The translations under genes and the position numbers were made by a program. Shown here in pieces: positions 6,825 through 45,867 of a DNA stretch of 64,000 nt. Within the stretch, counting starts at the first letter, position 1; each line of letters starts with the position of its first letter. Location of the stretch: positions 23,985-87,984 of the forward strand of contig NW_002476470.1 in the NCBI RefSeq assembly GCF_000189635.1, read 5' to 3'. The notes beneath the pieces were generated by a model. That model was not told where the DNA came from. It worked only from the letters and a program-made list of their open reading frames with translations, and made no database searches. Source of the DNA: Tetrahymena thermophila SB210. Taxonomy: Eukaryota; Ciliophora; Oligohymenophorea; Hymenostomatida; Tetrahymenidae.

Positions 6825-6964
6825 AATAAATAATACTTTTCAATCAAATCAGCATACATATATAATATAAATGTTAAGTAAGAACTCTACTATATTAAGC
6901 TAACAATCAAATTAGTATTATAATTAATCTTTTCTTTGAATGAATTTAATTCAAACATAAAAAA
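6825..6964 (-). promoter_or_regulatory. Conserved 3' flank of antigen gene 6965-8968
   Basis: Carries the shared TTTTCAATCAAATCAGCA (plus strand) and following AT tract of the antigen 3' regions. Confidence 0.45.
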
Positions 6965-8968: not shown

Positions 8969-9200
8969 TTTACTAAAATTTGTTTTATTATTTTCTTTTT
9001 TAATTAATTAATTATTATCAAAAGAGGTTGCTTGATTTAGGTATTTATAAAGAAGAATATAGACAATACAACTTCTTAATTAATTTTTTTCTTCTAAAAT
9101 ATAATGAAATCTATAAATATATGTAGGTACTTTAATTAATTTATATGAAGAAAAAAAATTAATAATGAGCATACTAAATTAAATAAAGAATAGATTTATC
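8969..9200 (-). promoter_or_regulatory. Conserved 5' flank of antigen gene 6965-8968
   Basis: In gene orientation it contains CAAGCAACCTCTTTT and the AATTAATTAATT tract, as in the paralogues. This ATG is preceded by TTTAGTAAA rather than AAGTAAA. Confidence 0.45.
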
Positions 9201-9585
9201 TAATTTATATTTTAAAATTAAAAAAAAATTTATAAGAAAAGTAGTAATGTACACATTTATTTAGAAAAACCAATCAAGCTGATTCATTAATAAATACTTA
9301 ATTTTATAATAACACTTACAAAGATGATTTTTGATAGTCATATTTACTATTTATTAAATTAAAAAAAATCTTTTAAAATTTTTAAACCAAACAACGAGTA
9401 GGTTGAGTATATCAGTTATTAACTCTTAAAAACTAAATAAATTTGCTAGCTTTTCATTTTGATACCTTACCCTATCAAACTTTAGAAAATATATCTTTCA
9501 TTATCTATTATATTATTTTTTTAAATTGTATGAAAAAATGGAAAAATTAATCTTAAACAATCAAAAACGTGTTTGAAATAGAGTA

Positions 9586-20743: not shown

Positions 20744-22402
20744 TCAGAAAAGGAATGTAATTAAAAATAAAACTGAGCTCAAAAATATCATTGAGTTTGA
20801 TGAAGATGAAGAAGTAGGAGCTGTTGCTTAGCAACCAGATCTATCAGTCTTAGCATATTAACTAGTATTACCATTGCAAGCTAAGCAATCTGAGTTAGTC
20901 CAGGTATTAGCAGTTCTACCATTACCACAAGTTGCACCTGCAGCAACACAAGCATTTCCTGCAGTGTTAGCAAACACAGCTTGAACGCTACCGTTAGCAG
21001 TACCGGGACAAGATTGACAGAAGAGATCAGTAGCACCAGTAAATGTAGCACCACCTGTAGGACAAGTGTTAAGTGCACATTTTCCAGAGTTTACACCATT
21101 ACCCCAAGTCAAAGTCATGGTAGGAGTGACAGTAGGAGGGGCTGGGCAATTAGCAGGAGAAGCACATCCAGAACCAGTGCAGGTAACATCAGCACCAGGA
21201 ATAGGATTTGCTTAGCAAGCAGATCTATCAGCCTTTGCATATTGTTAAGTATTACCATAACAGGCAAGGCAATCTGAGTTAGTCCAGGTATTAGCAGCTC
21301 TACCAGCACCACAAGTTGCACCTGCAGCAACACAAGCAGTTCCTGCAACGTTAGCAAACACAGCTTGAACGCTGCCACTAGGAGTACCAGGACAAGATTG
21401 ACAGAAGGGATCAGAAGCACCAGTAAATGTAGCACCACCTGTAGGACAAGTGCTAAGTGCACATTTTCCAGAGGTTACACCATTACCCCAAGTCAAAGTC
21501 ATAGAAGGAGTGACAGTAGGAGGGGCTGGGCAATTAGCAGGAGAAGCACATCCAGTACCAGTGCAGGTAGCATCAGCACCAGGAATAGGATTTGCTTAGC
21601 AAGCAGATCTATCAGCCTTTGCATATTGTTAAGTATTACCATAACAGGCAAGGCAATCTGAGTTAGTCCAGGTATTAGCAGCTCTACCAGCACCACAAGT
21701 TGCACCTGCAGCAACACAAGCAGTTCCTGCAACGTTAGCAAACACAGCTTGAACGCTGCCACTAGGAGTACCAGGACAAGATTGACAGAAGGGATCAGAA
21801 GCACCAGTAAATGTAGCACCACCTGTAGGACAAGCGCTAAGTGCACATTTTCCAGAGGCTACACCATTAGCCCAAGTCATAGTCATGGTAGGAGTGACAG
21901 TAGGAGGGGCTGGGCAATTAGCAGGAGAAGCACATCCAGTACCAGTGCAGGTAGCATCAGCACCAGGAATAGGATTTGCTTAGCAAGCAGATCTATCAGC
22001 CTTTGCATATTGTTAAGTATTACCATAACAGGCAAGGCAATCTGAGTTAGTCCAGGTATTAGCAGCTCTACCAGCACCACAAGTTGCACCTGCAGCAACA
22101 CAAGCAGTTCCTGCAACGTTAGCAAACACAGCTTGAACGCTGCCACTAGGAGTACCAGGACAAGATTGACAGAAGGGATCAGAAGCACCAGTAAATGTAG
22201 CACCACCTGTAGGACAAGCGCTAAGTGCACATTTTCCAGAGGCTACACCATTAGCCCAAGTCATAGTCAAAGGAGGAGTGACAGTGGGAGGGGCTGGGCA
22301 ATTAGCAGGAGAAGCACATCCAGTACCAGTGCAGGTAGCATCAGCAGCTGCAAATATTTAGCTTACTAAAAGCGAAACAATTAGTAACTTTAAAATATTC
22401 AT
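20744..22402 (-). CDS. Four-repeat immobilization-antigen-like surface protein (552 aa)
   Basis: ATG at 22402 to TGA at 20744 is exactly 553 codons. The signal peptide is MNILKLLIVSLLVSQIFAAA. Four repeats of ~128 residues each carry 12 cysteines: DATCTGTGC, NCPAPPTVTPPLTMTWANG, KCALSACPTGGATFTGASD, an FCQSCPGTPSG segment, TACVAAGATCG, TWTNSDCLACYGN and a closing AC or GC before Q-A. A very short Ser stretch and the family GPI tail (NSMI/NSMII type) follow. Ala/Thr/Gly-rich, GC-richer coding stands out from the AT-rich flanks. Repeats 1-3 are almost identical in DNA, while the last differs more. The expected location is the cell surface as a disulfide-rich GPI-anchored coat protein. Confidence 0.92.
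21115..22266 (-). repeat. Three near-identical 384-bp coding repeats
   Basis: Boundaries at 21115, 21499 and 21883 give a 384-bp (128-codon) period. Only a handful of bases differ between units, including silent sites, which indicates very recent duplication or gene conversion. Confidence 0.9.
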
Positions 22403-22660
22403 TTTACTTAAATTTTTGTTTTTATGATTTTCTTTTTTAATTAATTAATTATTATGAAAAGAGGTTGTTTGATTTAGGTATTTGAAAGGATAGATAGATA
22501 GAATAAAATTTCTTAATTTAATTTTTTTCTTCTTCTAAAATGTAATTAAATTTATGAAGGTAGGGAATTTAATTAATTCGAACAAAACAAGTTGATAAAT
22601 AATGAACATTCTAAATTATAAATAATAAATGGTATAAATAAGGGATTGACTAATTAATTT
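22403..22660 (-). promoter_or_regulatory. Conserved 5' flank of antigen gene 20744-22402
   Basis: Contains CAAACAACCTCTTTTC (gene orientation), the AATTAATTAATT tract and a pyrimidine-rich leader next to the ATG, as in the paralogues. Confidence 0.5.
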
Positions 22661-23004
22661 ATATACAATTTAAGTAGTAGTGTATGATTTTAGTTTGTAA
22701 AAGCAAGCTAATTCATTAGTAAAAATAAAAAGATAGATTTTTTATGAAAAGCATTATTTAAAGGAAATTAAAGAGGATTTTTTGATAATCATATCAATTA
22801 AATAAAAAAAATATCTTAAGTTTGTCGAGCATATTATTTATTAGTTATAAAAGACTAAATAAATAAATAACTAACAATTTTTGATTTTGATTGATACCTT
22901 ACCCTATTTGATTTAAAAAAAAACATCTTTATGTATCTATTACTTTATTTTCCTAATTAACTAATTAAGTCTATTAATTTTTGTATCAAAAATAATTGAA
23001 AATT

Positions 23005-24345: not shown

Positions 24346-24889
24346 GATTAATCACTTACGGGATGGGGATTTCAAAATTTTTTACACTTTTTCAGATTGC
24401 TATCAAAAGAAAATGAATCAATGTAGGACATTCTATACGCGGTGTTACAAAGTATATCCATAATAATTTTGTAAATCATTTTATAATTTTTTAAAATAAA
24501 TAAATTTGAATAAAAAATATTTTTTTTTTGAATGCAATTTGTTAAATATTTTTTGGATAATAGATAGACAAATCCAATCAATTATCTTCCCTAAAATCTT
24601 AAAATAAACAAATAAATTATTAGCATCATGCTTTTTTGCTAAAAATTTTACTTACTAATCAACAAGCGAAAATATTTTCTTTTTTTAGATTAAAATAATT
24701 TAAAAATCTAAAAGCTAAATTTTTTAAAGCTATTTTTGAAGAATTTAAATAAGGAAACTAACTACATATTTTTTATCCTTTGTAATAAAAATTATTAAAA
24801 AATAAATACTTCTTTACTTTTAATTGGAAATGAATGACTACATATCCAAAAATTAAAAGATGAAAATCCTTGTTTGATTGTTATTAGCC

Positions 24890-27800
24890 AATATATTTTT
24901 TTTATTTAAAATAGAAGAATTTCAAAAAATCATCTTTCAATAAATTTTTTAATAGATTAATGGATGTATTTATTTTTTTATTTAAAAAATTTGTTACTAA
25001 TAATGCTCTATAAGCATTTAAAATTTAAAAAGAAAATTATTCATGTTAATTATTGTGTAAATCAAGAATAATATGATTTTATTCAATTCAAACATTCAAA
25101 ATCAACAATTAGTTTTAAGATAGTGCGAAAAAAAATAAAAGCTATTTTTTCATATATTGATTTACAAGTAAGTAAATAAGCAAGTAACAAATAGTTTATT
25201 CTTCGAAAATTTTAGTGATGTCAATATTATGCTGCTTATTTTAATGCTAAACACATATTTATTTTCAAAACCATCTTTTTAATATATTTAAGGCTATTTT
25301 TTGAAATCATTTTTAGTTATGAATTAAGTTTTTGTTTGAAAAGTTTCATTAAAGCTTTCTACAAATTTGAAATAGTTTAAATAGAAAGAAAGCAAAGGAA
25401 TATTGATTGATAAATGTCAATAAAAATTGAAAAATCACAAATAATTCAATATTAGTAGACTTTAAAATAAATAAGGAGAAAAGTCTAAAAGATATCCTTA
25501 TAAATTTTCAAATGTAGACTAATTTGTTTTAATTAAAAAGACAAATAAATAATTAATTAGTTAATTAGTTTGTTTGTTTGTTTGTTAATAATCTATGATT
25601 AAAATCAAATTAGTTCATTCAATCAATCAAAGATGATCAATTATTTTTTTAATATATGACTTACCTTAAATCAATTATTTAAGACAATAAATTAATAATA
25701 AAATTTATTAAATTTACTCCCAACATTCTTATATATTTTTTTATTGATTTTAATTAAATTCATTCACTTTAAAAAATAGTATTTCAATTTACTTCTTAAT
25801 ATATTTATACAAGAATTATTGTCTACAAAGAGTGGAGTTAAGAATTTTTACTATCAAATTAATCACATATATACTTACTTACATTTTATACAATTTATAT
25901 ATCCAAGTTTTTTAAAAAAAATTATTTAAGCTACAATGTATCTATGTATGTATATTCTTACATTTATACATAGATACACAAATCATTTGTGTATAAAAAT
26001 ATATTATTTACTAAATAAATTAATACATTTATATTCATTAGTACATTTATTACTCTCAACCAATTTTTATTGATATTACTATCAAATCAAACTTAGATAG
26101 ATAGACACACAAAAGGAAAGTATTAATAACAGCTGGCTGTCTATCTATAACCTTTAATGGATGACATATATAATTTTAAATAAGAAAATGGCATATAACA
26201 AAAAAAAATAAACAATAAAAAAGTGCGCTAACTAACTAATTAACTAAATAAATAAGCAATATGCTTACTAAAAATTAATCAAATTAAAAAATATTTTGTT
26301 TTCATTTTTAAGTTTATATTTTATTTTAATTAAAATGTAAATCCAAGGACGGACAATGAAAGCGCTTTCTCGAATTTGTAAATATTTATATTAGGTATAA
26401 CTATCTATTAACCAATATATACCATATATAATAAGGATTTGACATTTTTTTTATTCAATTAAAGGTATTTAAATAATTAATTTTTTAGCATGTTTGCTTG
26501 TTTTTTTGAATGTTTGTTTGTATATTTATTTGCGTGTTTAGGGTATATAAATAAGAATGGTTGTTTGAATAATTTTAACTAGAGAAATTATACTGATTGC
26601 ATCATAAATGAATTTTGAGTTGTTATGTTTATTCTATTTTAAATTCTGATGTGACTATAATCTATAAGTCCATACTTACACATCTAAAAAGATAGATTGG
26701 ATCTGAAGACTTTTTGTATAATTTAATTAAATAATACTGATATAAATATTTTAGATTCACCGACCCACTAAGTTTATTTGAATTTTATTAAAGATCTTGT
26801 GTAAAAATATTAATTTATTTACATACTTCAACCAAAAAAAATCTATTTTTATTTAGTACTTAGATAAATATATTTATTTATTTATTAATTGATTTGTCTT
26901 AAAATGGATGACAATTAATCTTGTATAAAAAAGTTGCAAAGAAAGGAAAAAACAATATTTTATTAAGTGAATTTTTTACAAAAGACTACAACAGCACAAT
27001 CAATCAAATCATTCAAAATTTACTTTATATTGCTAGTTAATAAAATGTTAAGATTGAATTATTTTACTTTTACTCTAAATGAATTCGATTGTTTTTAAAA
27101 AATACATAAACTTCTTTTAAAATAATTTTATATTTTACCTAAGTAAATAAATATAAATCTATATTTTATAAATGGCATCCATACATCCATTATTTTTTTT
27201 CTAAAATGAATTAAATGATTTTTTAACAAAAGACTACAGCAGCATAATCAATCAATTCGTTCAAAATTTACTTGATATTGCTGGTTCAATTAAAATGTTA
27301 TGATCGAATTATTTTTTCTTTTAGTCTAAATGAATTTGTTTGTTTTAAAAATAAATTAACAACTTTAAAAATAATTTTATATTTTAATAAATATCATAAA
27401 TTTAAATCTATATTTTATAAATGGTATCTTCCACTATTTTTTTTCTAAATTTTTTCTTTAATTCTAAAATCAAAAAGCAAGTTCATCCATTTTTTAATTT
27501 AAAAAAAGAAAGATTAATTTCCCTATTTAATACAATTCATTCATGAAAAACTATATTTGAATTAGTATTTAAAATAATTATTTTACTAAGATAGATTTTA
27601 ATTAAATTAATTCATCTTTAATTATTATCAATCCTTTAAATTTATTAAAATTATTTTGTTTGCTAACTAACAATAAGGAGGACATATATTTAGAATTTTA
27701 TCTAATCCATAGTAATCTAAGATTGAATTAATTTGGTTAAGATCAAGATGAAAAAAAATAACTAAACAATTAATTTAATAATATAAATCTGTCTGTCTAA

Positions 27801-29600
27801 ATAATGTAGTACAAACAGAGGAGAATTAAGAAAATTGAATTGTAAGTATTTATTTAATTAAATTAATTGGCTATTTATTTATTTGTATACTTTTCATATT
27901 TCTAAGACTTTAGGGTTTGTTAATTTATTCTGATGAATTACTATTCAAATTCAAAATCAATTAAATTAAATTTCTAAGTTTCTCAATCAGAAAAAAAAGG
28001 CTAAATCAGAGACTTTTTAAATCATACAATTTTTATATATATCCATAAAACATATATGTTAATATTCATTTGTTTTTTAGAAATACTAAAAGGAATTTAA
28101 GTCATTAAAAATGTTTATATTATTTTAATAGATATTAATACTGAGATAAAAAACAAGTATATTCTAATTTATTTTTTCTTACAAATATATATAAAGGGAT
28201 ATAAGATATATTTATTATATTGTATGACTTTCTTAATACTTGTTATTTACTAAATTAATTAAGTAATTTATATCTTTTAGTTACTATTTTCATTCATATT
28301 TTTTAGAGGAGAATTAAAATTGTTAGATTTTATTTTTATTTTTACGCATAAACATTATGAACAATTGAATTTAATACGCATCAAATATATTAACTACTTC
28401 TCTTTTTCTTTATTTAAGACAATTTTAGATTGGTATTTTTCGAAAAACTTATCAATAAAAAAGGAAGCCATAATATCTATTTATTGATACATACATACAT
28501 AAATGCTTATGAATTTATTTAAATTTTTACTAAGTTATTTAGTAAGTTGGTTCATAAATTAGTTTATTAATAAGTTTTTTTTGATTTTCTTTAGCATCAA
28601 GACTAAAAATAAAATGATTATTTTCTATTTAAAAAGTGTTTAAAGCAGTTTTAGAAATCAAACAATACAACTCTTTTTTTAAATAAATGAATGTATTTAT
28701 GAAATAAAAATGTGAAATTATTTAAAAATAGAATAGCATTTTTCTATTTTGAAATTATTTTAGTTTTAAAGTAAAAGTCAAAAATTAATCTAAATCAGCT
28801 TTAATTTCTTTTAAAATTATTTAAATAAGAAAATTTAAAATATATTAAGTCTTTCTGATTTGTTTAAAGTATTCAAAGGCATAAAACATAAAACCACTTC
28901 CAAAATACTTATTATAATAAATCAATTTCTTGAAAAATATTATTTAGATTAAATTTAATAAAATTAATTTTTTAAATTGTCATTTTTTTTCATTAAATTT
29001 TCTATCTGAATAATATTTTATTTTATTTCAAAAAAATTATAATAATTTTTTATAATATTTATTTTCAAATAGAAATACATTGATAACAAACAGCGAAAAA
29101 GAAAAATATATCCACTAAAATGACTCAAAATTATAATTCTCATTTTAATATGAATTATTTTTTACTTTCTTTTCATTATGTAAAACAAAATAATAAGACT
29201 AAACAAAATCATTTCAAAAATGTTTAAAATCAAGATTAGAATTAAATATAAATATTAGAAAAACCAGCAATCACTTTATTATTCATAGACTTAACAATAT
29301 ATAAATGGTGTTATCATTTAACAAAAACATTTATTATTTTTAATCAAATCAAAATTGCTTATAATCATTGTCTATTTATTTTATTTGGCTAAAATAAATA
29401 CTCAAACAAAATATTTATTTTTAATTAGAATATAATAAAAAATAAAATAATTATTTTTTTAAATGCCTTAAATTCTACTTCAAATGTATATTTTATTTGG
29501 ATAAAATTGATAGATAGATATATAAAGAGATAAGTAGAATAAATAGAGAGATAGATAGATAAATAGATAAATAGATAAATAATAGATGCGTGTCCAAAAA
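24890..29600. repeat. Large segmental duplication, copy A
   Basis: Homologous along its length to 39130-44690 (copy B), and its last ~1.1 kb also to 45868-46985 (copy C). Shared landmarks include GTGTTATCATTT, CAAAGGCATAAAA and TTTAGAGGAGAATTAAAATTG. The copies differ by many small indels and both frames are broken often, so it reads as non-coding. It ends in a GATA-type microsatellite (29506-29590). Confidence 0.85.
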
Positions 29601-30002
29601 GTTATTAAAATTGATGATTATTTTTAATTGATTTAAATTTTAGATATACTTATATCTGGCACATTTTTTACAAGCCCAGCCATTTAGCGCATAATGAATA
29701 ATAAATAAAAATATAAAAATATTTAATTTATTAAAATATATTCTGGGATTGTTTGTTCTATTAATTAATCAAGAAAATAAAAAAGGGAGCTTAGCTTTTT
29801 TTTGATTCATTAAAAATAAAAATTAAGAGGTAAATTTTGATTAAACATTTTTTATTTTTTTCTTCTATCAGGTTCGAAACAAACCTGTTTCAAAACCTTT
29901 TTTTTATTTATTTTAATTTTTTTTATATTATATTAAATAATATTTATTATTCTACTAAGTCTGTCTATATTTCTAACTCGAGAAATAATTTTCTGAAAAT
30001 AG

Positions 30003-33000
30003 CTTATAATTGGAATAGCTGAATGCATTAATCTCTAAAGTTTGATAATCAATCTTGAGTAAATATAAAAAAGCAAACTATTTATTTTTTTAACATTTTT
30101 ATTTTATGAAATCAAATAAATAAGCTATTAATTAATTAATTAAATTAACAGTAAGAAAGTATGTAATAAAAAATAATATTACTCATTTCTTAAAATTTGA
30201 TTTATATCAACTTATTTACAAATTTTTTTAATTAGATATTCTAAATTATAATTTTATTTACTTATTTGGATAATTATTTTCCAATTTTATTTTCTTTCCA
30301 ATTTTCATTAATATAAACTCGCATATTCTTATAAATATAATAAGTAAAAACTTAATTGGTGCATAGGGCGCATCAAGCTTGGGTTCTAGTTTAGCTAAAT
30401 GCAGTAATCTCTAAAATTTTACGCTTAGTCTAAAGTAAATTTGTTTTATCTAACTGCTTTAATTAATATTTTTTGCTACTTTTAATTTGATAAAAGCTGT
30501 CTAGAAATAATAAATATATTTAATTGTGATAAACCACTATGATTTTGGTTGTATATTACGTTTGATTAATAACTAAATACAATTCATTTAATCCTTTAAC
30601 TATTTTATCAATATTAAATTTGAATAATTTTAACTTCAACTTTTTCTTTCTTTTTTTTAAGGATTTTTTTAATTTGTGATAAAAACTCACATTTTATTTA
30701 ATATTTAATAGTTCAAATTCAATAGGAGCATAAGGTACTTCTGCTTTATGTTCTAGCTTAGCTAAATGTAGTAAACTCTCTGATTTGTCATTGAATCTAT
30801 AGTAAAAATAGTTTTTTTATCTATTATTGTTAAAGATTAGCGATATATTTTATATTTCAAAATCAAATCAATTATTTTATAACTTAAAAAATTTACAAGA
30901 CAGACATGAAAATAAATCGTTTTATTTTAATTTTCTATCAATTTTGATTATTTATTTTAAATTAGCTTTCTGTTTCTTTTCAAAATTAATATTTTTTTTT
31001 TCACTTTAAATTTCCATTTTAGTTACAAATTTTTAATATAATTCCATTTTTATATTTTAATCGAATAAATTTGTAAACCTTAATAGGTTTAATTATATTG
31101 GGGAATAGGGTGCATCGTTCCTCGGTTCAGGGTTAGCTAAGTGTACTAATCTCTAAAATTTGTCTCTTAATCTTAGGTAAAATATTTCATATGTTTTAAA
31201 GATATATTGGATCATATTTATAATTTGAAAAGATTTTAAGTGTTAATGAAAATTTTTTTATTAATGCTTAATCATGTATTTGTGCTTATTTTTTAATTCA
31301 TTTATTTGCTCAAAAATTATTTATTTATTATATCAACTTTAAATTCCGTTTTGAATTATTTAGTTATCAGTTTTTTTTTAAATAACTTAAGTATTTTTTT
31401 TGATATTAAAATTATATATTATTTCTAAATTTAAAAGTTCTAATTTAATTGGTCCATAGGGTGCTTTAAGCTTGAGTTCTAGTTTATTTTCGTGCTCTAA
31501 TCTCTCAACTTTAAACCTCAATCTCTAGTAAAAATAATTTATTCGATTTTTTATTCAGCAGTAAGTACTACTTTTAAATTTTTTAGATTTTGTATTCAAT
31601 AAGTTTTACTTTTTTTTGGAAATTAATAATAATAAATAATTTACCAACTGACAACTGATGAGTGAAAATGAGTGCAAAGTTTATTATATTATTTTATTTA
31701 AATTTAATTCAAAAGTCATTACTTTTCATTGTTTTTATTTTAAAATATCTCATAATTTTTTATTAATTGGCAAATAAAATTCTAAAAATTAATAGTGACA
31801 ATAAAATTGGTTCAAAGGGTGCATAGAGTTTGCTTTCTTATTTAGCTAAGTGGAATAATCTCACAAATTTGACACTCAATCTCAAGTAAAAATAATTTAA
31901 TTATTTTTGTTAATATTTAATTAATCTTAATCATTTAATATATGTATGAATGTATATTTTGTTTGTTATATTTATTATTAATTTTATTTATTTATTTATT
32001 CATTATTCTTATTTTTATTTTTAACTCTCTTTTTAATATATTTCCCTATGCTTTTTTATATTAAATCGCATATTTTCTTTGTATTAAAAGTTCCAATTAA
32101 ATTGTTGGATTTGGCTTATAAGGTATGTATCCTGGTTTATCTAAGTGCAGTAATCTCTCAAATTTGACAGTCCACCTTAAGTAAGAGCGCTTAATACCCT
32201 TTTATAAAAAATTTTATTTTTTGATTTCTAAGATTAATTAAATACTAAGAAAATATGCAAAATCAACAAATTATTAATTATTTTTAATAATATTCTTAAA
32301 ATTTTTGTTTATTTACTTTTATCTAAATCAAAAAATATTTATTTATTAAACTTTGAATATGCATTTATTTAGTTAGTTAGCTAGCTAGCTATCAGTCTTT
32401 ATTTTTTATTCAAATTTTTCACATTAATTTTGATAAGTTTTATGAATGTTAATAGTAGCAATAAAATTGGGACATAGGGTTCATAAAACTTAGGTTCTAT
32501 TTTAACTAAATATATCAATCTCTCAAATTTAAGAATTAACCTAAGGTAAAAATAGCTTATTTTAATTTTTTAGCATTTCTGCCATTTATTTAATATGATT
32601 AAATTATTAAATTATTAAGAAATTTATTTGTTCTTAAGATAAGTTGTAAAATAATTATTTAATAAGTTAATTAATTGGTTGTTTTTTTTGTATTTTAATT
32701 TTGTTTAATTCCTTATTTACGTTCATTTGCTTAATTTTTATTCTTCTCAAATTTATTCTAAATATAAATAGTTCAACTTCTATTGATGACTTGAGCATAT
32801 CAAGTATATGTACTGGGTTATCTCAATGCACTCAAATTTCAATTTTAATACTTGAACTCTAGTAATTAATAATCGCTTTTTTATTTATTTTTTTTAACAA
32901 CATTTTATTAATTTTGAAGATTAAAAATTATTATATAAAATAAATAGAAAAGTAATAAAAATTCTAGTTGTTTCTTTATGTTTATGTTTTTTTTGTTTAT

Positions 33001-34747
33001 ATAATAATTATTTTTGATAACCTATTTGCAGTCACTAATTTATTTTATCAACTTTATATTTAATTTTCTCAATTATTTGAACATAAACTCACATAACATT
33101 TAAAAATAATAAAAGAGAAAATTAAATTAGCTATAAGGGAGCATCAAGTTTGGGTTTATGTATAGCTAAGTGTAGTAATATTTCATACTTTACTCTCAAT
33201 CTTAGGTAAAACAGTTTACTTATTAATCAGCAGTTAGAGCTTTTTTTTAGCTTGAAATACTAACAAATAATTAATTAATGAAATTTGTTTATGAAACATA
33301 TTAAATAATGAAATCATTATTTGTAATTTCTTTCTAAAAAAAAATTTTTAATACTTATTTTTCAGTTAATTCTTAATCAATTTTGTTCATTAAAGTTTAT
33401 TTTAGATAGTATCAGTTTTATGCAAATTTTCAATATAATTTCTTCTTATTAAGTTTTTCATATTCACTAATATTTTTTCTATATTTTCAAAGTAAAAATA
33501 AAATTGGTCCATAGGGTGCTTTGAGTTTGTTTTCTGGTTTTACTCATGATACTAATCTCAAAACGTTAATACTTGATCTCTCGTAAAAATATTACTTATT
33601 TAAAGAACATTTTGTAGTTATTCTTTTATTTAATTTTGAAAACCTATAAAATTTTAAAGGAATTTGATAGTAAGAAAACATTCAAAATATTTGCATAGAT
33701 ACTTATTTTCTTTAGTCATTTATCTTTTTCCAATATAAATATGACTAGTTAACTTTTTTTATCCTGTTTGATTTTCTTAAAACTTTTCTATTATTATTTA
33801 ACTCACAATAATTTATTGAAACTTAAAAGTAATAACGAAATTAGCTCACAGGGAGCATCAAATTTAAGCTAAGGTTTAGCTAAATGTAATCAACTTTCAA
33901 ATTTGTCTCTCATCCTTAAGTAAAATATTTAATATTCTTTATTTAAATTTTATGTTATCATAACAATCAGTTCATAGATAATTCATAGCAAAATATTTAA
34001 AATATTAATACTATATTTGGTTGTTTTATTTTTAATTTATTTATACTTTATCGCCTATTTTTCTCATTCAATTTTTCACTTTATTCTAAAAATGTTTTTA
34101 AAAATTTAAATTTTCATGTTTTTAATAAATTTCTTTACTTCCAACTTTTTAATAATTAACTAAATATTTTAATAAATATTATAAGTTACAATGAAATTGA
34201 NNNNNNNNNNNNNNNNNNNNNNNNNNNNNNNNNNNNNNNNNNNNNNNNNNNNNNNNNNNNNNNNNNNNNNNNNNNNNNNNNNNNNNNNNNNNNNNNNNNN
34301 TGGGTTCTAATTTAGTTAAATGCACTTATCTTTCGACACTAAAACTTGAGCTCTTGTAAAAAATTTAATTGTTTAATCAGCAATATTTGTTTTTTTTTTT
34401 TAATTTATAAAGCAATCAATTATAGTTCATTAATTTTCATTTATAAAACATACAAAAATAATAATATAATTATTTTTTTGTATCTAAATTGATCACTCTT
34501 AATAGTTTATAATATTCCTTCTCATTATTTTTTATTTATTTTTTCAACTTAAACTTTTATTTTAACTAGCTAACAGCATTTCCTTCATCTTTTTGATTTT
34601 TTCCAAAGTTTTTGCTAATAATTAATTATTTTTATCTAAATAAATAAATAAAGCCATTATAAATTACGTGATTATGGAACAAAATAATTAAAAACTAAAA
34701 TTTTTAAAATGAAGAGATTAGTGGAAAAAACTATATATTGTAGATGA
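30003..34747 (+). CDS. Leucine-rich-repeat protein, one repeat per 90-nt exon (multi-exon; 5' end unresolved)
   Basis: Eleven complete exons of exactly 90 nt lie at 30345-30434, 30712-30801, 31087-31176, 31438-31527, 31796-31885, 32091-32180, 32456-32545, 32772-32861, 33116-33205, 33493-33582 and 33830-33919. A twelfth (34186-34355) is cut by a gap. Each follows TAG or AAG, precedes GTAA, and splits a codon after its second base, so all are in phase. Each encodes one 30-residue repeat of the form xNxIGxQGAxxLxxxL followed by AKCxNLxxLxLxL, for example NLIGAQGASSLGSSLAKCS. This is the ribonuclease-inhibitor-like LRR type common in ciliates, usually a protein-binding scaffold. Introns are 205-287 nt. 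30003-30058 is a partial first repeat (GIAECINLQSL). A final exon 34609-34747 fits the phase and ends KMKRLVEKTIYCR before TGA. The initiator ATG was not found; upstream exons are likely. Confidence 0.8.
34201..34300. other. Assembly gap (100 N) inside an LRR exon
   Basis: 15 nt of exon precede it and 55 nt follow, in the repeat register. A normal 90-nt exon would need 20 missing bases, or 20 plus a whole number of exon-intron units if repeats were collapsed. Confidence 0.95.
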
Positions 34748-34749
34748 TA

Positions 34750-35299
34750 TATAATTAATATATTAAGTTTAATAGTTTATTGTATATGTTTTGTAAAAAT
34801 ATCTTTTAAGAATTTAAAAATATAATGTGAAAATAAAATTTAATTTAAATCTAAATTTATATATTATATATAATTTTTTATTGCATAGCTTATATATTTC
34901 TGTGTTAAGTAATATTAATAATAATTTATGAATATTGATTGATTTAACAATTTTCGATTTCATAATCTTTTTTGATGACATTTTAAAGATAAATAATAAT
35001 ATTTTTTTCTTTTATAAAAAACATACAATTTTGATAAAAAATAATTGTAAATAAAATTATTTCAGTCAAATAACTTTTGAAACAAATTAAAAAGACTGTT
35101 TTAAAAATTTTTATTAAAAATGTAATTTTTTGTTTAGTTATGTTGAGTGATTATGATAGATTTATTAGCGTGATTATAAAAAAATTAATAATCAAATTAT
35201 CTTAAAAAATAAATCCTTAATATTTATATAATTATAATGGATGTAAGAAGCTATTAAAGATAAATTATGATTGAAATACATCTGCATTCACCACCACGT
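34750..35299. other. AT-rich spacer, no gene seen
   Basis: Very AT-rich DNA with homopolymers between the LRR gene and the decayed segment that follows. No coding pattern was recognised on either strand. Confidence 0.6.
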
Positions 35300-35940
35300 G
35301 CTTTAAGTTACAAAAAATAACAGCTTGATCTTATATAAAGCAAAAAAAATTAAGAAATATCAATTTGTTAGGCTTCTAACAGTAACAGTTAATGAAATTG
35401 ATTTCTCAATACCAATTATAAAAATAGCATTAAAAAGAGAGATCTTAATAAATAATAATAAAATTTAGAACTGATTAAAAAGCACTTAAAAAAGCAAATA
35501 TAATTATAACATGATTTTCCGAAGGAATATGATTTCTTTGTAAAGAAAAATGCATATTAAAAAAATGATCATTTAGCTGGTAAAAATTGAAAAAATGAAT
35601 AGAAGAATTCTATTCAAAATAAAATATATTGGAGATAGAGATTTAAGAAGAAATTGTTTAGCTTCCAAATCAAATAATTGAGGATTCTGAATTTATCGAA
35701 ATAGACACACTAACTAATAGATGATGAGAATAGTAATGACAATATTGAGAATTTGAGAAATTTTTAATTAGATTTGGATTATAGTACTGATTTTGATTAA
35801 AGAGAAACATCATCAGACAGACTAATCTTCTTCAGATATCTAACTAGAAAAGGACAATTCATATCTAAATCTAAATAATAAATATGAAAATTTACATTCA
35901 TTATTAAAAAATATTATGTTCATATTTTCTTATTTGTTTG
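35300..35940 (+). pseudogene. Decayed protein-coding remnant with several frameshifts
   Basis: Successive frames give protein-like pieces: KKYQFVRLLTVTVNEIDFSI (35353 on), then FPKEYDFFVKKNAYQKNDHL, EIVQLPNQIIEDSEFIEIDT, DDENSNDNIENLRNF and SSSDIQLEKDNSYLNLNN. They are joined only by frame changes. The first part has a diverged partner near 2410-2510 with conservative amino-acid differences. The acidic C-terminal pieces look coding, but no known family was recognised; a mobile-element or DNA-binding protein is one possibility. It lies ~0.5-1.1 kb 3' of antigen gene 36405-37265. Confidence 0.4.
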
Positions 35941-36269
35941 TATTTATATAAATTAATATTAATTTTAACTTTAATTAGATTGAAAAGTTTGCTCTAAAAT
36001 AAGAAATTCAAATGATCTAATAAAAATTTTATGGTAGTAAATTATTCAAGAAAAGCAAAACTACAAATTTAATTTTTTCTATAAAATAAAGAGAAACTCC
36101 TTAAATTTAAAAGTTATTAATTAGAGTAAAATAAATTTAATTTTAATAAAAGCATGTTAGATAGATAATAGAATATGAAAAATTTTTTTTGATAAAAAAT
36201 TAAAAATAAAAAGAATATGATTATGATTATGAGAAAATAAAAGAAATTTTTGTTTAATTAACTGAATGC

Positions 36270-36404
36270 ACAATAATACTTTTCAATCAAATCAGCATAC
36301 ATATATAATATAAAGGTTAAGAATAATACTATATTGAGCTAACAATCAAATCAATATTATAAAGAATCTGTTTTTTTGAAAGAGTTTTATTCAAACATAA
36401 AAAA
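36270..36404 (-). promoter_or_regulatory. Conserved 3' flank of antigen gene 36405-37265
   Basis: Shared antigen 3' block (CAATCAAATCAGCATACA and the following AT tract). Confidence 0.45.
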
Positions 36405-37265
36405 TCAGAAAAGGAATGAAATTAAAAATAAAACTGAGCTCAAAATTATCATTGAGTTTGTAGAAGAAGAAGAAGGAGTTGTTGCTTAGCAACCAGATTT
36501 ATCAGATTTAGCGTATGAGGCGGTAGATCCATAACAGGCAATACAATCAGCATCAGTCCATGTATTATTACCTCTACCAGTACCACAAGTTGCAGTTGAA
36601 GCTACACAACCAGTTAATGCATTATTAGCAAAGACAGCTTGAACTTTGCCGATAGGAATTCCAGGGCAAGATTGACAGAAGAGATCAGAAGCACCAGTAA
36701 GTCCTGATGAAGTACTTGCAGGACAACCATTAATAGCACATTTTCCAGATACTGAACCAGTCTACCAGGTCAAGGTACCAGGAGCACTTGGAGCAGCTGT
36801 GCAACTTGAGCATGTTGCAGTAGAGCAACTAACATCAGCACCAGGTGGAGCAGTTGATTAGCAACCAGATTTATCAACCCTAGCATATATGTTACCAGTT
36901 CCATTACATATAAGGCAATCTGCATTAGTCCATTAAACAGATCTATCACAATTTAGACTTGAAGCTACACAAGCAGTTTTTGCAGTATTAGCAAAGACAG
37001 CTTGAACTTAGCCGTTAGGAGTTCCAGGACAAGATCTACAGAAGTTATCAGAAGCACCAACGAGTCCTGATGAAGTATTTGCAGGACAGCTATTAATAGC
37101 ACAAGAAAAACCTACACTACCTTACTACCAGGACAAGCCAGTAGGAGTAGTAGGAGCAGCTGTGCAATCACTTGAGCATTATGGACCTTAACAACTAACA
37201 TCAGCACCAGCAGCAAATATTTAGCTTACTAAAAGTAAGGCTAATAATAACTTTAAAATAGTCAT
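36405..37265 (-). CDS. Two-repeat immobilization-antigen-like surface protein (286 aa)
   Basis: ATG at 37265 to TGA at 36405 is 287 codons, open in the ciliate code. The signal peptide is MTILKLLLALLLVSQIFAAG. Two repeats follow. The first has GADVSCQGPQC, TTPTGLSWQQG, an FCRSCPGTPNG segment, ACVASSLNC and WTNADCLICNG. The second has GADVSCSTATC, APGTLTWQTG, an FCQSCPGIPIG segment and TWTDADCIACYG. A short Ser linker and the tail TNSMIILSSVLFLISFLF follow. All conserved cysteines appear present, so it should be a functional GPI-anchored surface protein. The two repeats differ more from each other than those of the four- and five-repeat genes, suggesting an older or unhomogenised copy. The Ser linker is the shortest among the multi-repeat genes. 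Confidence 0.9.
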
Positions 37266-37530
37266 TTTATTTAAATTTTTGTTTTTATTGAATTCTTTTT
37301 TAATTAATTAATTATTATGAAAAGAGGTTGTTTGATTTAGGTATTTATATTGATATTGAGAATAAAAATTTTGAATTTAACTTTTTTCTTCTAAAATATA
37401 ATAAAATATAAGAAAGAAGGTATGTATGCATGTATGTACTTTAATTAATTTATTAGATGAAGAAAAGTTAATAATAAGCATTCTAACTAAATAAAATAAA
37501 ATGAGTGAATGGATATAAATAAGGGGCTAA
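37266..37530 (-). promoter_or_regulatory. Conserved 5' flank of antigen gene 36405-37265
   Basis: Contains CAAACAACCTCTTTTC and the AATTAATTAATT tract in gene orientation, as in the other intact copies. Confidence 0.5.
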
Positions 37531-39129
37531 TTTATATTATCAAATATTAAGAAAAAATTATAAGTAGTAATATACACTTTTAGTTAGTATAAGCAAGCTA
37601 ATACTTTAATAAATATAAAAATTTAGTTTATAAATAACATTTTTTAAAAGAAAATAAAGAAGATTTTTGAAAGTCCAATTTACTATTTATTAAATAAAAA
37701 AATCTCTTAAGCTTCTTTAATCAGGCGAGCTAGTTGGTTGAGTATATTAGTTATTAGCTATAAAAAACTAAATAAATAAGTTAACAATTTTGGTTTTGAT
37801 ACCTCACCCTATCAAATTAAAAAAAAATATCTTTCAGTAATATTTTAATGAATGCTACATAAAAAATAAAAAAATTTATATAAAATATTCTCTTAAATGA
37901 TAAATCAATATACTGTTAAAACCAATTTTGCTATCCGCCACATCTCTAATGAAATAAATTGACTGAAAAAAGTTTTAACAAAAAAATGAAAAGAAAAAAT
38001 CTTTTGTAACCCTTTAATTGTTAAAATAGAGTAATCACGCTTGATTTAGAAGTGTTTGTTTTAAATTTTGATTAAAAAATAGTTTATTAGTGAGTTTGAA
38101 AGTCCAATATTTTACAAAAAAGTCTTTTAATGAGATAAATAGATAACAATTATAAATGATTGAATAGTAAATAAAATGACATGTTTTAAGTAATAATATT
38201 TGAATCTCATTTACAAATAGCTGAGAATTATTTTTTACTTGCTTAGTAAGATTGCGCCTAAAAAATTGTCAAAAATTAATTTTCAAAATCTTGTTTTAAT
38301 GTGAATAAAAGATAGACTTACATCTAAATATATTTCAAAGAGCCTGAAATTTTTAATTAATTAGTAGATAAATTTCTAGTGATAAGTCTTTTTCAATAAA
38401 TAGAATTTATTAGATTGAAACAAATTCAATTTTATTTCCAAACTTTTGATTCGTATTTCTGAGTATTTTGGAATTGTACATATTTGAATATTTGCATATT
38501 TATTTCAGCAAAATGTTATTTAAGCGCTGATGACATTATGCAAATGTCTTAGTTTCTATGAAGCTAAATATTCATTTTCGAATTTTGTAATATTAGATTT
38601 AAAAATTAAAAGATCTATTAAAATTTTGTGAATTTGTCTTCAAATGATTTGCTCTAAAGTTAGTTATTTTGATTGTAATTTTAATTAAATATTTTTGAAA
38701 ACTTACTTAACTTAATTATATCTAATAATTGATAAATTACTTATGGGATGAGGATGAGGATTTCAAAATTGCTATCAAAAGAAAATTAATAAATGTAGGA
38801 ATAATAACGCATGTTAAAATGTAAAACCCTTAACAAATTTTCATAATAATTTATTAAATATTTTTGGATAATAAATAGATGGACAAATTCAATCAATTAT
38901 TTTCCCTAAAATCTTAAAATAAACAAATAAATTATTAATATCATGCTTTTTTGTTAAAAAGTTTACTTAGTTATCAACAAGCGAAAATGCTTTCTTTTTT
39001 TAGATTTAAATAATTTTATAATCTAAAATATAAATTTTTTTAAACTTTAGTTGAATTTAAAATGTTTGACTACATATCCAAATATTAAAAGATCTTTGTT
39101 TATTTGTTTATTTGATTGTTTTTAGTGAA

Positions 39130-42100
39130 TAAGTTTTTTTATTTAAAATAGAAGAATTTCAAAAAATGAGCTATCAATAAATTTTTTTATAGATTAATGG
39201 ATCTATTTATAATTTTATTTAAAAAATTTGTTACTAATAATGCTCTATAAGCATTTAAAATTTAAAAAGAAAATGATTCATATAAATTGCATTTAAATCA
39301 AGAATAATAATATGATTTTATTCAATTCAAACATTCAAAATCAATACTTACTTTAGAAAAGCAAACAATTTAAAATTAATGGGTTAGTGTCTAAAAAATA
39401 AAAGCTATTTTTTCATATTTTGATTTACAAGTAAGTAAGCAAACAAGCAAGTAACAACACATAGTTTATTCTTCAATAATTTTAGTAATATTAAGATAAT
39501 GCTGCTTATTTTAATATTAAACGCATATTTATTTTTAAAACCATTATTTATATTTAAGGTTATTTTTTTAAAATCATTTTTTGTTATGAATTAAGTTTTT
39601 GTTTGAAAAGTCATTAAAACTTTCTTCAAATTTGAAATAATTTAAATAGAAAGCAAAGGAATATTAATTGTACAAACCAATAAAAATAGAAAAATCACAA
39701 TTAAGTCAATATTAGTAGAGTTACAAATAAATAAGGAGAAAAGTTGAAAAGATATCCTTATAAATTTTGAAATGTAAACTAATTTGTTTTAATTAAAAAG
39801 ACAAATAAATAAATAATTACTTAATTTGTTTGTTAAATAACCAATTATTAAAATCAAATTCATGCATTCAATCAAAGATTGTCAATTATTTTCAAATCAC
39901 ACGGCTTACCTTAAATTAATTATTTAAGACAATAAACTAATAACAAAATTTATCAAATTAGAACCTCCAACCAATTTATATGTTTTTTTATTGATTTTAA
40001 TTAAATCAATTCGCTTACATAAAATAATAATCCAATCTACATCTTACCATATTTATATAAGAATTAATATTGACAAAGAGTGGAGTTAAGAATTTTTACT
40101 ATAAAATTAATCATATAAATACATACTTACATTTTATATAGTTAAATATCCAAGTTTTTTTTGTTAAATTATTTAATCTACAATATATTTATGTATGTAT
40201 ATTCTTACATTTATACATAGATACGCAGGTAACTTGTGTATAAAAATAAATTATTTACTTAATGAATTAAAAGATTTATCAATTATTTAAGACAATAAAT
40301 TAGTAACAAAATTTATCAAATTAGAGCCTACAACCAACTTATATGTTTTTTTATTGATTTTAATTAAATCTATTCGCTTACATAAAATAATAATCCAATC
40401 TACACCTCTTACCATATTAATATAAGAATTAATATTGACAAAGAGTGGATTTAAGAATTTTTACTATAAAATTAATCACATTTCTACATACTTACATTTG
40501 ATTCACTTCTATATCCAAGTTTTTTTGTTAAATTCTTTAAGCTGCAATGTATCTATCTATTTATGTATATTCTTACATTTATACCAACTTATATGTTTTT
40601 TTATTGATTTTTATTAAACCTATTTGTTTACATAAAATAATACTTCAATCTACTTCTTACAATATTCATGTAAGAATTAATATTGACAAAGAGTAGAGTT
40701 AAGAATTTTTACTATAAAAATAATCACATTATTACATACTTACATTTGATTAACTTATATATCCAAGTTTTTTTTGTTAAATTATTTAAGCTACAATATA
40801 TCTATGTATGTATGTATATTCTTAGATTTATACATAGATACACAAGTAACTTGTATAAAAATAAATTATTTACTTACTTAATAAATTAATACATTTACAT
40901 TGATAAGTATATTTATTAATCCCAACCAATTTTTTTTGGTATTACTATCAAATAAAATTTAGATAGACACACAAAAGGAAAGAATTTATAACATCTGGCT
41001 TTCTATCTATAACCTTTAATGGATGACATAAATAATTTTAAATAAAAATGGTATAAAACAAAAATTATAAACAATAAAAAAGTGTGCTAACTAACTAATT
41101 AAATAAATAAATAAGCAATGTACTTACTAAAAATTAATCAATATTTTGTCTTCATTTTTAAGTTAATATTTTATTTTAATTAAAATGTAAATCCCAAGGA
41201 CGGAAAAAGAAAGCACTTTCTCAAATTTGTAAATATTTATATAAAGTAATACTATCTATTAACCAATATATACCATATGTAATAAGGATTTGACATTTTT
41301 TTTATTCAATTAAAGGTATTTGGATAATTAATTGTAGGGATATTAAATCCTAGCATATTTGTTTGTTTGTGTTTTTATTCACGTACGCATTTATGGTATA
41401 TAAATAAGAATGGTTGTTTGAATAATTTTAACTAGAGAATTTATACTGATTACATCATTAATGAATTTTGAAATATTATGTTTATTATATTTTAAATTCT
41501 GATTTGACTGTAATCAATAAATATATCCATTACACATATAAAAAGATCTGGATTTGAAGATTTTTTGAATAATTTAATTAAATAGTACTGATATAAATAT
41601 TTTAGATTCACCACCTACCCACTAAGTTTATTTGTATTGTATTAAAGATATTGCCTAAAAATATTTATTTCTTTACACTCTTCAACCAATAAAATCTATT
41701 TCTATTTACTACATAGATAAATATTTTTATTTATTAATATATTTGTCTTAAAATGGATTACAATTAATTTTGTATAAAAAAGTTGTTAAGAAAGGAAAAA
41801 AACAATATTTTATTAAACGAATTTTTTACAAAAGACTACAACAGAGTAATCAATAAATTCATTCAAATTTTACTTTATATTGCTAGTTCAATAAAATGTT
41901 AAGATTGAATTATTTTACTTTTACTCTAAATGAATTTGATTGTTTGTTTTAAAAAATACATAAACTTCTTTTAAAAATAATTTTATATTTTACCTAAGCG
42001 AATAAATCAATATCATAAATAAAGAATATATATTTTATAAATGGCATCCATCCACTATTTTTTTTCTAAATTGTTTCTTTAATTCTAAAATCAATTAAAT

Positions 42101-44690
42101 GATTTTTTACAAAAGACTACAACAGAGTAATCAATCAATTTGTTCAAAATTTATTTTATTATGCTTGTTCAATAAAATGTTATAATTGAATTATTTTTTC
42201 TTTTAGTCTAAATGAATTTGTTTGTTTTAAAAAATAAATCAACAACTTTTAAGATAATTTTATATTTTAATAAATATCATAAATTTAAATCTTTATTTTA
42301 TAAATGACATCCATCCACTATTTTTTTTCTAAATTATTTCTTTAATTCTAAAATCAAAAAGCAAGCTCCTCCATTTTTTAATTTAAGAAAAATTAATTTC
42401 CCTACTTAATACAATTCATTCATGAAAAACTAGATTTGAATTAGTATTTAAAATAATTATTTTACTAAGATGTATCTTAATTAAATTAATTCATCTTTAA
42501 TTATTATCAATCCTTTAAATTTATTAAAATTATTTTGTTTGCTAACTAACAATAAGAAGGACACATATTTAGAATTGTATCTAATCAATAGTAAAATAAG
42601 ATTGAATTAATTTGGTTAAGATCTAGATGAAAGAAAATAACTAATCAATTAATTTAATAAAAGAAGTCTGTCTGTCTAAAAAATGTTATAAAAACAGAGG
42701 AGTTTTAAGAAATTTGAATTGTAAGTATTTATTTAATTAAACTAATTGGCTATTTATTTATTTGTATACTTTTTATTGTTCTAAGATTTTAGGGTTTGTT
42801 AATTTATTATTATGATGAATTACTATTCAAATTCAAAATCAATTAAATTAAATTTCTAAGTTTCTTAATCAGAAAAAAAGAGGCTTAATCAGAGAGTTTG
42901 TAAATCATAAAGTTTTTCTTTATATCCATGTGTGTATATATGTAAATATTCATTTGCTTTTTAGAAATACTAAAAGGAATTTAAGCTATTAAAAATGTTT
43001 ATATTATTTTAATTGATATTGATACAGAGATAAAAAAAAATATAGCTAAATGCCATTCAAAAATTTAGTGAATTGAGATAACTATTTTTTTGAATGGCTG
43101 ACGCATTTGAAGATTCTTTATATAAAAATAAATAATTTTATAATAGAATTTCATTAATAATATTGATAGCCCCAAACAAAATCCTCCACTTACTTCAGAA
43201 AATTTAGCTAAATTTAAAATTTATGATGCAAAAAAATTATTTATTTTTGAAATTATAATAAATTAAATTATTAATTAATTATAATTCTATTATAAAATAT
43301 CAAAATCAAATTTTTTAATAAGTAACTTAAAAAATATATTTCATAATAAGTCACATCCAAAAGACTGAATTTTTGAATGGCATCTTGCTATATATTCTAA
43401 TTTATTTTTTCCAAAAAATATATAAAGATAAAAGATATCTTTATTATATTATATTCTTTTCTTAATATTTGTTATTTACTAAAGTAATTAAGTAATTTAT
43501 CTCCTTTAGTTACTATTTTCATTCATATTTTTTAGAGGAGAATTAAAATTGTTAAATATTATTTTTATTTTTACGCATAAACAATATGAAAAATTGAATT
43601 TAATACGCATCAAATATATTAACTACTTGTCTTTTTATACTCTCTTTTTCTTTATTTAAGACAATTTTAGATTGGTATTTTTCAAAAAACTTATCAATAA
43701 AATGAAGCCATAATATCTATTTATTGATACATACATACTTATGAATTTATTTAAATTTTTACTAAGTCATTTAGTAAGCTGATTCATAAATTAGTTTATT
43801 AATAAATTTTTTTGATTTTTCTTTAACATTATAACTAAAAATAAAATGATTATTTTCTATTTAAAAATTGTTTAAAGCAGTTTTAGAAATCAAACAATAC
43901 AACTCTTTTTTTAAAATAAATGAATGAATTTCTGATATAAAAATGTGAAATTGTTTAAAAATAGAATAGCATTTTTCTTTTTCAAATTATTTAGTATTAA
44001 AGTAAAAGTAAAAAATTAATCTAAATCAGCTTTAATTTCTTATAAAATTATTTAAGTATGAAAATTTAAAATATATTAAGTCTTTCTTATTTGTTTAAAG
44101 TATTCAAAGGCATAAAATATAAGACCACTTTAAAAATACCTATTATAATAAATCAATTTCTTTAAAAATACTATTTAGATTAAATTTAATATTTTTTAAT
44201 TAAATTTTCAAAATGAATAATATTTTATTACTTCAAAAAATTATATTTATTTTTTATAATATTTATTTTCAAATAGAATTCCTTGATAACAAAGAGCGAA
44301 AAAGAAAAATATATCTACTAAAATGACTCAAAATTATACTTTGCATTTTTATATGAATTATTTTACAAATTATGAAATATTTTTACTTTCTTTTGATCAT
44401 GTAAAACAAAATAATAAATAATACTAAACAAAATCATTTTAAAAATGTTTAAAATCAAGATTAGAATTAAATATAAATATTAGAAAAACCAGCAATCACT
44501 TTATCATTCATATACTTAACAATATATAAATGGTGTTATCATTTCACAAAAACATTTATTATTTTTTAATCAAATCAAAATTGCTTGTAATGATTGTCTA
44601 TTTATTTTTTTTGGATAAAATACTCAAAAAAAATATTTATTTTTAATAAATAGAATAAAAAGAAAAATAATAATTTTTTTAATTCTAGTA
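39130..44690. repeat. Large segmental duplication, copy B
   Basis: Homologous to 24890-29600. It is longer because of the element inserted at 43041-43392 and three local tandem copies at 39929-40930 (CCAANTTATATGTTTTTTTA-marked). Together with 36405-39130 it forms a duplicate of the whole 20744-29600 cassette. No gene was recognised within it. Confidence 0.85.
43041..43392. mobile_element. 352-bp TIR element (MITE-like) with an empty site in the paralogous copy
   Basis: The left end TATAGCTAAATGCCATTC continues into AAAAATT. The right end, reverse-complemented, reads TATAGCAAGATGCCATTC and also continues into AAAAATT, so ~25-bp ends differ at two or three bases. The ends are flanked by TA. 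In copy A (about 28160) the same neighbourhood runs straight through (ACAAGTATATTCTAATTT), showing the empty site. The left end also forms a local hairpin (GCCATTCAAAAA/TTTTTTGAATGGC), and internal arms containing TATAATAGAATT pair with AATTCTATTATA. No ORF: a non-autonomous element, plausibly Tc1/mariner-type by its TA flank, or a retained internal eliminated sequence. Confidence 0.7.
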
Positions 44691-44794
44691 TTAAAATATT
44701 TGTAATTTAAAGTTACATTCTTAAAAACTTTGTTATATTAGGGTATACTTTTAATAAAAGATTATATTTTTATAAAAATAAATAGATACTGTTT

Positions 44795-44865
44795 TAATTG
44801 CACACGTGTGCGCACTAAGTGGGTTTTGATTATTTTGCGCAGATGTGCGCATTCTGTACGGATAA
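44795..44865. other. GC-rich palindromic island
   Basis: Contains the perfect palindrome GCACACGTGTGC (44800-44811) and, 30 bp on, GCGCAGATGTGCGC, in otherwise extremely AT-rich DNA. It marks the junction between segmental copy B and the 3' flank of the antigen pseudogene. Function unknown. Confidence 0.6.
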
Positions 44866-44964
44866 TTACCTTAAATTTAAAAGTTATTAATAAGAGTAAA
44901 ATAAATTTAATTTTAATAAAAAATATGATTATGAGAAAAGAAAAGAAATTTTTGTTTAATTAAC

Positions 44965-45108: not shown

Positions 45109-45867
45109 TCAGAAAAGGAATGAAATTAAAAATAAAACTGAGCTCAAAATTATTATTGAGTTTGTTGAAGCAGAAGAAGAAGGAGCTGCTGCTGCTAAGG
45201 AGTAGTAGGAGCAGCTATGCAAGTTCCAGCAGTTTTGCATGTTGCAGCAGAGCAATTAACATCGGCACCAGGTGGTGGAGCTGTTGCTTAGCAACCAGAT
45301 TAATTAGCCTTAGCATATTAGGCAGTATTTCCATTACATGCAAGGCAATCTGCGTTAGTCCATAAAGTAGATCTACTACAATTTCCAGTTGAAGCAACAC
45401 AACCAGTTAATGCAGTATTAGCAAAGATAGCTGGTACTCCATTGACAGTAGCACCAGGACAAGATTGACAGAAGAGATCAGAAGCAGCAACAAGTCCTAA
45501 TGAAGTACTTGCAGGACAATTATTAATAGCACATTTTCCAGAAGTTGAACCATTCTACCAGGACAAGCCAGAAGGAGTAGTAGGAGCAGCTTAACAAGTT
45601 CCAGCAGTTGTGCATGTTGCAGCAGAGCAATTAACATCAGCACTAGGTGGAGCTGTTGCTTAGCAACTAGTTTAATTAGCCTTAGCATATTAGGCAGTAT
45701 TTCCATTACATGCAAGGCAATCTGCATTAGTCCATAAAGTAGATCTACTACAATTTCCAATTGAAGCAACACAACCAGTTAATGCAGTATTAGCAAAGAT
45801 AGCTGGTACTCCATTGACAGTAGCACCAGGACAAGATTGACAGAAGAGATTAGAAGCAGCAACAAGT
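45109..45867 (-). pseudogene. 5'-truncated, internally deleted immobilization-antigen pseudogene
   Basis: Open from 45867 in the ciliate code with the family pattern: an FCQSCPGATVNG segment, TGCVAS, an NCSRSTLWTN segment, ADCLACNGN, SCQA or GCQA, PSGLSWQNG. There is no signal peptide or ATG: the coding frame stops abruptly at 45867, where DNA matching the middle of the large segmental duplication begins. Near the 3' end the third repeat is cut at about 45196. CysIleAlaAlaProThrThrPro is fused out of frame to the Ser-linker/GPI-tail DNA, so translation ends at a TGA inside the tail. The tail DNA itself (frame SASTNSIIILSSVLFLISF) is intact. The two visible repeats are ~97% alike. Two deletion-type breakpoints make this a recombination relic (or partly a misassembly at 45867). 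Confidence 0.8.

Follow-up and report, generated by a model that had tools for sequence, protein, structure and literature searches.

An array of eleven 90-nucleotide leucine-rich repeat exons lacking the family leader exon, beside a dispersed repeat in a SerH gene cluster of Tetrahymena thermophila

Exons of exactly 90 bp are a published hallmark of leucine-rich repeat (LRR) genes in Tetrahymena. The main text of Xiong et al. (2019; PMC6564038) describes tens of thousands of 90-bp LRR exons in ten Tetrahymena species, and reports that 1,500 of the 1,874 LRR genes of T. thermophila contain at least one of them (1 to 51 per gene), and that more than 96-98% of the 90-bp exons are in phase 2. The same text distinguishes three age groups, with a main intron peak at about 257 bp for group III in T. 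thermophila, and proposes that the exons were shuffled through unequal crossing over, in which an element resembling long interspersed nuclear elements (LINE-like) may have helped. Masking by one of eight macronuclear (MAC) consensus repeats and a physical link to the Tt.REP retrotransposon or its 54-bp tail are further marks of group III, the youngest. Here we describe one array of such exons, found in a stretch of 64,000 nucleotides (nt) from T. thermophila SB210 (assembly GCF_000189635.1, contig NW_002476470.1, positions 23,985 to 87,984; from here on, the window). The array is one copy of the published family and thus of a kind already known; it is probably a damaged member of that family and not a new type of gene. 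As assembled, however, it lacks the conserved two-exon start of the sampled family members, which consists of a short ATG exon followed by a leader exon of the ..KKFLNSSLQSHQVLHIDL type. We judge, with a probability of about two in three, that it is an old array that would have been truncated at its 5' end and would now most likely be a pseudogene of recent origin, or a reservoir of exons, rather than a working gene.

On the plus strand of the window, between positions 30345 and 33919, eleven consecutive exons of exactly 90 nt were found (three or more in a row being what we count as an array), each preceded by AG, followed by GT and open in phase 2 when read with the ciliate code. On the basis of these borders and of a repeat profile, they were placed at 30345-30434 (exon 1), 30712-30801 (exon 2), 31087-31176 (exon 3), 31438-31527 (exon 4), 31796-31885 (exon 5), 32091-32180 (exon 6), 32456-32545 (exon 7), 32772-32861 (exon 8), 33116-33205 (exon 9), 33493-33582 (exon 10) and 33830-33919 (exon 11). 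Exon 6 contains the sole in-frame Met of the spliced frame that runs from 30003 through exon 11, and exon 8 is the most diverged one (18.3 bits). The ten introns between them measure, in order, 277, 285, 261, 268, 205, 275, 226, 254, 287 and 247 nt. An earlier description made from the letters alone (the sequence-only reading) had claimed eleven exact exons that split a codon after its second base, introns of 205-287 nt and the use of TAA and TAG as Gln codons. All of this was borne out: the intron lengths match exactly, and in-frame TAA and TAG codons occur within exon frames that are open when these are read as Gln. Since each exon is bordered by phase 2 introns on both sides, the gain or loss of an exon-intron unit keeps the reading frame.

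The sequence-only reading had given the gene a span of 30003-34747. The eleven-unit array does lie inside this interval, which also takes in a partial first exon (30003-30058) and a twelfth LRR exon (34186-34355, plus strand) that is interrupted by a 100-N assembly gap at 34201-34300. The known parts of the latter amount to 15 and 55 nt, so that about 20 nt would be missing if it is also 90 nt long. A terminal exon follows at 34609-34747 (plus strand), with the C-terminus of the family (..KMKRLVEKTIYCR) and a TGA at 34745-34747. The K.KRLV..stop motif, which in this analysis was set as a mark of a complete family member, is thus present in the window as KMKRLVEKTIYCR; 18 of 28 other arrays are followed, at no more than 900 nt, by a similar K.KRL..stop motif, and 4 of the 10 arrays without it had less than 320 nt of DNA left. 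When the 3' end of the array (34500-34800) was used to search the genome for a DNA paralogue, only that stretch itself was returned.

The genome searches covered the 101-Mb assembly with its 445 contigs. A piece of telomerase from this assembly agrees at every position with the TERT of PDB 6d6v, a T. thermophila structure, over runs of 102 and 135 residues, and differs from it where the translation ran into introns. The DNA of the array gave at least 230 matches among the best 40 of 1,092 candidates, and the family units among the matches listed were 63-83% identical to it. In 20 other loci of the same genome, which were chosen from the best DNA matches to the array and therefore do not sample the family at random, 306 of the 319 LRR hits (on strands that carry at least two of them) were exact 90-nt units with AG/GT borders. 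These arrays contain 3 to 22 hits each, and their introns have a median length of 251 nt (n = 281).

The start of the gene was examined in 28 other arrays of at least three units, six of which have 340 nt or less of upstream DNA and cannot be judged. A leader exon like KKFLNSSLQSHQVLHIDL, ending in SHQVLHIDL, was present in all 22 of the others, which have at least 780 nt upstream; the leader profile was built with rows from 7 of these 22 arrays, the other 15 having given no row. Two leaders are exceptional: that of L041 is weak (score 22.3) and that of L032 has no GT at the expected donor position. The leader exon is preceded by a short ATG exon, which was aligned in 14 arrays and keeps its ATG in 13 of them, the remaining one having AGG. 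This last case is the array in L045, another member that may lack its start codon. In the 64-kb window the leader exon was absent from both strands down to a score of 14. The stretch of the window most like the 54-nt leader exon differs from it at 22 positions, as compared to 0-11 mismatches on 19 locus-strands of the family, where the background begins at 21. Likewise, a search of the plus strand between 24000 and 30000 for a leftover N-terminal half exon gave at best -9.8 bits, as compared to values up to 36 inside the array. Since the sampled family members share the two-exon start, a truncated array can be told by its absence, and gene counts based on 90-bp exons alone may include truncated fragments. 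The core of the leader, which occurs at 482 genome sites with three or fewer mismatches (3 sites in the reversed control), offers a rapid initial tally of the members that are probably complete.

At its 5' side the array begins with an LRR exon remnant, LIIGIAECINLQSLIINL (30003-30058, plus strand). This exon is partial, contains no in-frame ATG and has its AG acceptor within the end of a dispersed repeat; upstream of it, the LRR frame meets a TGA at 29994-29996, and no ATG is found up to the donor. A phase 0 acceptor would be needed here, as compared to the phase 2 borders of the eleven exact exons. The repeat in question, at 29818-30004 (plus strand), is one arm, the right end, of an inverted-repeat element, flanked by TA in other copies, that ends with ..TTTTCTGAAAATAGCT at 30004 and resembles a miniature inverted-repeat transposable element (MITE). 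Of the 57 genome matches listed for 29700-30434 (best 40 of 493 candidates), 49 fall on this interval. The terminal 18-mer of the element was found at 30 genome sites with at most one mismatch, the window copy included, against 1 in the reversed control, and overall the element occurs at dozens of places in the assembly. In L004 (1204-1679) and L012 (1176-1674) the element is about 470-500 bp long, has inverted ends and is flanked by TA on either side, features also of Tc1/mariner-type MITEs, to which it may belong. The window copy consists of the right end only; TA comes after it, whereas the A found before this TA in those two copies is lacking here, and no clear left arm was found among the matches listed for the window. 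A literature search on Tetrahymena MITEs and the macronuclear genome gave, among the matches listed, only a paper on Blepharisma. Just upstream lies a second dispersed repeat of a distinct family (29632-29837, plus strand), seen as genome matches of 74-84% at positions of about 1033-1231 of the query 28600-29830 and 3-138 of the query 29700-30434.

The array therefore starts as a partial exon exactly where a dispersed repeat ends, and it has no leader, which together suggest a truncation at the 5' end. An insertion of the repeat, or a rearrangement at it, would have removed the start, and this loss would leave the copy as a recent pseudogene or exon reservoir. The best-scoring copies of the inverted-repeat element are 88-94% alike, as compared to a mean identity of 0.62 among the exons of the array, so that the insertion, if it did the damage, would be young relative to the exons. 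The same border might instead be produced by a contig misjoined within the repeats at 29632-30004, in which case the real gene would be complete elsewhere, with a leader and perhaps with more exons. Such an artefact is favoured by the fact that the junction lies at repeats with dozens of similar copies and by the presence of two 100-N gaps in the window. We regard it as decidedly unlikely, considering that the junction falls at the end of the repeat and not in its middle, as a real insertion predicts, and that the DNA downstream of the array also enters sequence of the SerH cluster. As this cluster is found on both flanks of the array, both sides fit a single cluster.

That the exons encode LRRs, one 30-residue repeat per exon as the sequence-only reading had it, was confirmed both by the aligned repeats, whose majority consensus is xNxIGxQGASSLxSxLAKCxNLSNLxLNL, and by searches with the spliced translation. 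Pfam gave LRR_6 with 46.1 bits (E 2.9e-12, cut-off 23.4), a match that is the sum of the repeats, no single stretch being above the cut-off alone. In the PDB, 16 distinct chains were matched at E values of 0.01 or less, the best (2.9e-16) being 9y6s, 'Leucine-rich repeat protein'. Judged by sequence, the type of LRR is like that of ribonuclease-inhibitor-like LRR proteins such as RanGAP (1k5d and 1yrg), NLRX1 (3un9) and the 'Uncharacterized protein' 5irl, and the likeness is confined to the repeats. We presume 5irl to be a NOD2, an identity that the PDB match itself does not show. The eleven exons scored 18.3-69.7 bits against the repeat profile, which is made of 317 exons (306 from other arrays and the eleven window exons themselves). 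The best score among 72,772 other open 87-nt frames, taken from both strands of the window outside 29900-34800, was -25.1. The eleven-exon pattern is not due to chance.

The joined exons also carry a coding signal. In their 990 bases no TGA is found in the LRR frame, whereas the other two frames contain 7 and 6, with 6.1 expected. Measured against the consensus that the other arrays give, the exons show 87, 76 and 138 changes at codon positions 1, 2 and 3. These alter 149 amino acids, as compared to 183 expected if placed at random (z -5.7). The absence of TGA, the excess at third positions and the reduced number of amino-acid changes show that these exons were shaped as protein-coding sequence, and the last two show a long-term constraint at the protein level in the past.

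Several observations weigh against a truncated, inactive copy. All eleven exons are still open between canonical splice sites, a state that would not last in a copy dead for long, and an equal number of randomly placed changes in the exons would be expected to create 3.8 TGA codons, where none is seen. Similar z values (-6.0 to -8.1) were obtained for three old arrays with a leader hit, either of their own or in a partner array. The constraint test, moreover, covers the entire history of the exons and does not tell when the start was lost. The 24-nt motif of the ATG exon has a 4-mismatch match at 23352 (plus strand), besides 5-mismatch matches elsewhere; since a leader exon is absent after them, we put these down to chance, the DNA being AT-rich. 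An assembly error at the repeat may also have to be reckoned with. Finally, an alternative start (ATG at 30106, donor after 30158) would join exon 1 in frame.

This last point is the core of a different explanation, namely that the locus is a working gene whose start was replaced, for instance by a new exon at 30106-30158 (MKSNKQAINQLIKLTVR, donor GTATGT) joined to 30345, which would give it an unrelated N-terminus. Of the ATGs in 29501-30330, two give an exon that can be joined in frame, and this one alone has a common donor tetramer; the open and historically constrained exons would also be accounted for. The candidate exon, however, has no family support, lies inside what would otherwise be the first intron, and is unremarkable as a chance find in AT-rich DNA. 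In addition, among the ATGs in 29301-29990 (exons shorter than 200 nt, GTA donors), none opens an exon that could be spliced in frame to the partial exon at 30003. For these reasons, we consider a replaced start unlikely, and a recent 5' truncation remains our preferred reading. It is also unlikely, in our opinion, that the leaderless array is still under selection after the loss of its start, either as a gene that has acquired a new first exon or as a reservoir of silent exons for recombination with complete members in the antigen cluster.

The sequence-only reading had proposed a gene that grew by duplication of exon-intron units. If the locus were a complete LRR gene, newly recognised and grown through local duplication (an idea that partly overlaps with a replaced start and with an assembly artefact), the eleven exons of identical phase and the weak relatedness of the introns would be accounted for. 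Nevertheless, genes of this kind are published, and the locus has neither the leader exon of the family nor an intact first exon, the latter being cut where the dispersed repeat ends; a complete new gene was rejected on account of the missing leader. Adjacent exons of the array, with identities of 0.50-0.69, are no more alike than exons overall, for which the mean pairwise value of 0.62 is the fourth lowest among 25 locus-strands, and recent local duplication is thus not seen. For 8 of the 11 exons the nearest exon was found in another array, a comparison biased by the 306 exons outside as against 10 inside. This explanation appears highly improbable. Growth by duplication does agree with the published history of the family.

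The introns give a similar picture. GTAAAA opens 7 of the 10 introns between exact exons, in line with the earlier statement that several begin in this way. That several contain TTNATCAGCA was too strong a claim, since its exact form occurs in only 2 of 13 introns (33223 and 34373), while outside the introns the window contains it at 52080 (plus strand) and 13373 (minus strand); for this reason it was rejected as a signature of the family. The supposed relatedness of the introns is detectable by alignment, but only weakly: the mean z was 1.64 over 78 pairs of 13 introns, with 15% of the pairs above 3, as compared to -0.02 for 338 pairs of introns and pseudo-introns and 0.26 for 325 control pairs (an earlier run without control gave 1.54). 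Introns of young arrays have a mean z of 24 among themselves, and 0.91 was measured between window and young introns. A profile of 122 young-array introns matched no intron of the array, and gave one weak place elsewhere in the window (E 0.51).

The array sits in a cluster of genes for SerH surface antigens (immobilisation antigens), which lie on the opposite strand. On the minus strand, SerH genes were recognised by Pfam at 20744-22990 (SerH, 8e-73), at 36035-37839, next to the array (open frame 36405-37811; SerH, 3e-44, supported by self-similarity), and at 45144-46439 (SerH, 1e-22). SerH genes and intergenic DNA are segmentally duplicated, with further similar stretches near 1-1060, 3043-4923 and 6613-9503. 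In two SerH units, pieces of the intergenic DNA match in the same order (24796-29462 and 39024-44682). The distance from one matched end to the next is about 6.8 kb (29462 to 36222) in the unit that carries the array and 242 bp (44682 to 44924) in the paralogous unit, so the array may have been inserted in one SerH unit or lost from the other. Tandem copies at 7069-8928, inside a SerH-like stretch, are about 370 nt long and nearly identical (95% at a shift of one unit). Farther downstream, an open reading frame (ORF) at 58673-59848 on the minus strand matches DUF6691 (1.1e-23) and Sulf_transp (1.3e-6), families known mainly from bacteria. No Pfam domain was found in 10 ORFs around the array, and the window gave no Rfam match at gathering scores and no tRNA.

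On the whole, the analysis mainly confirms published work from raw sequence, and adds to it a leaderless array and a leader shared by the sampled members. None of the terms 'first exon', 'N-terminal' and 'truncat' appears in the main text of Xiong et al. (2019; PMC6564038), and a literature search on Tetrahymena LRR pseudogenes and exon shuffling gave nothing on the family beyond that paper among the matches listed. As far as that text goes, the array resembles the LRR genes of groups II and III in its arrays of exact 90-bp exons, in phase 2 and in having one LRR-sized unit per exon, and those of group III also in its long introns (205-287 nt here, a peak at about 257 bp there). The growth by exon shuffling proposed in it is the same history as the exon duplication of the sequence-only reading. 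Compared with young arrays of the family, the window array has more diverged exons, introns that barely match and no leader. A more distant parallel is offered by the ROCO genes of brown algae, which, in the part of PMC11378527 that we draw on, also have one LRR per exon, of a uniform 72 bp and in phase 2, and are shuffled. They differ in exon length, in their 23-residue LRR, in the ROC-COR GTPase context and in belonging to an unrelated lineage; thus, the two systems work alike and are not the same family.

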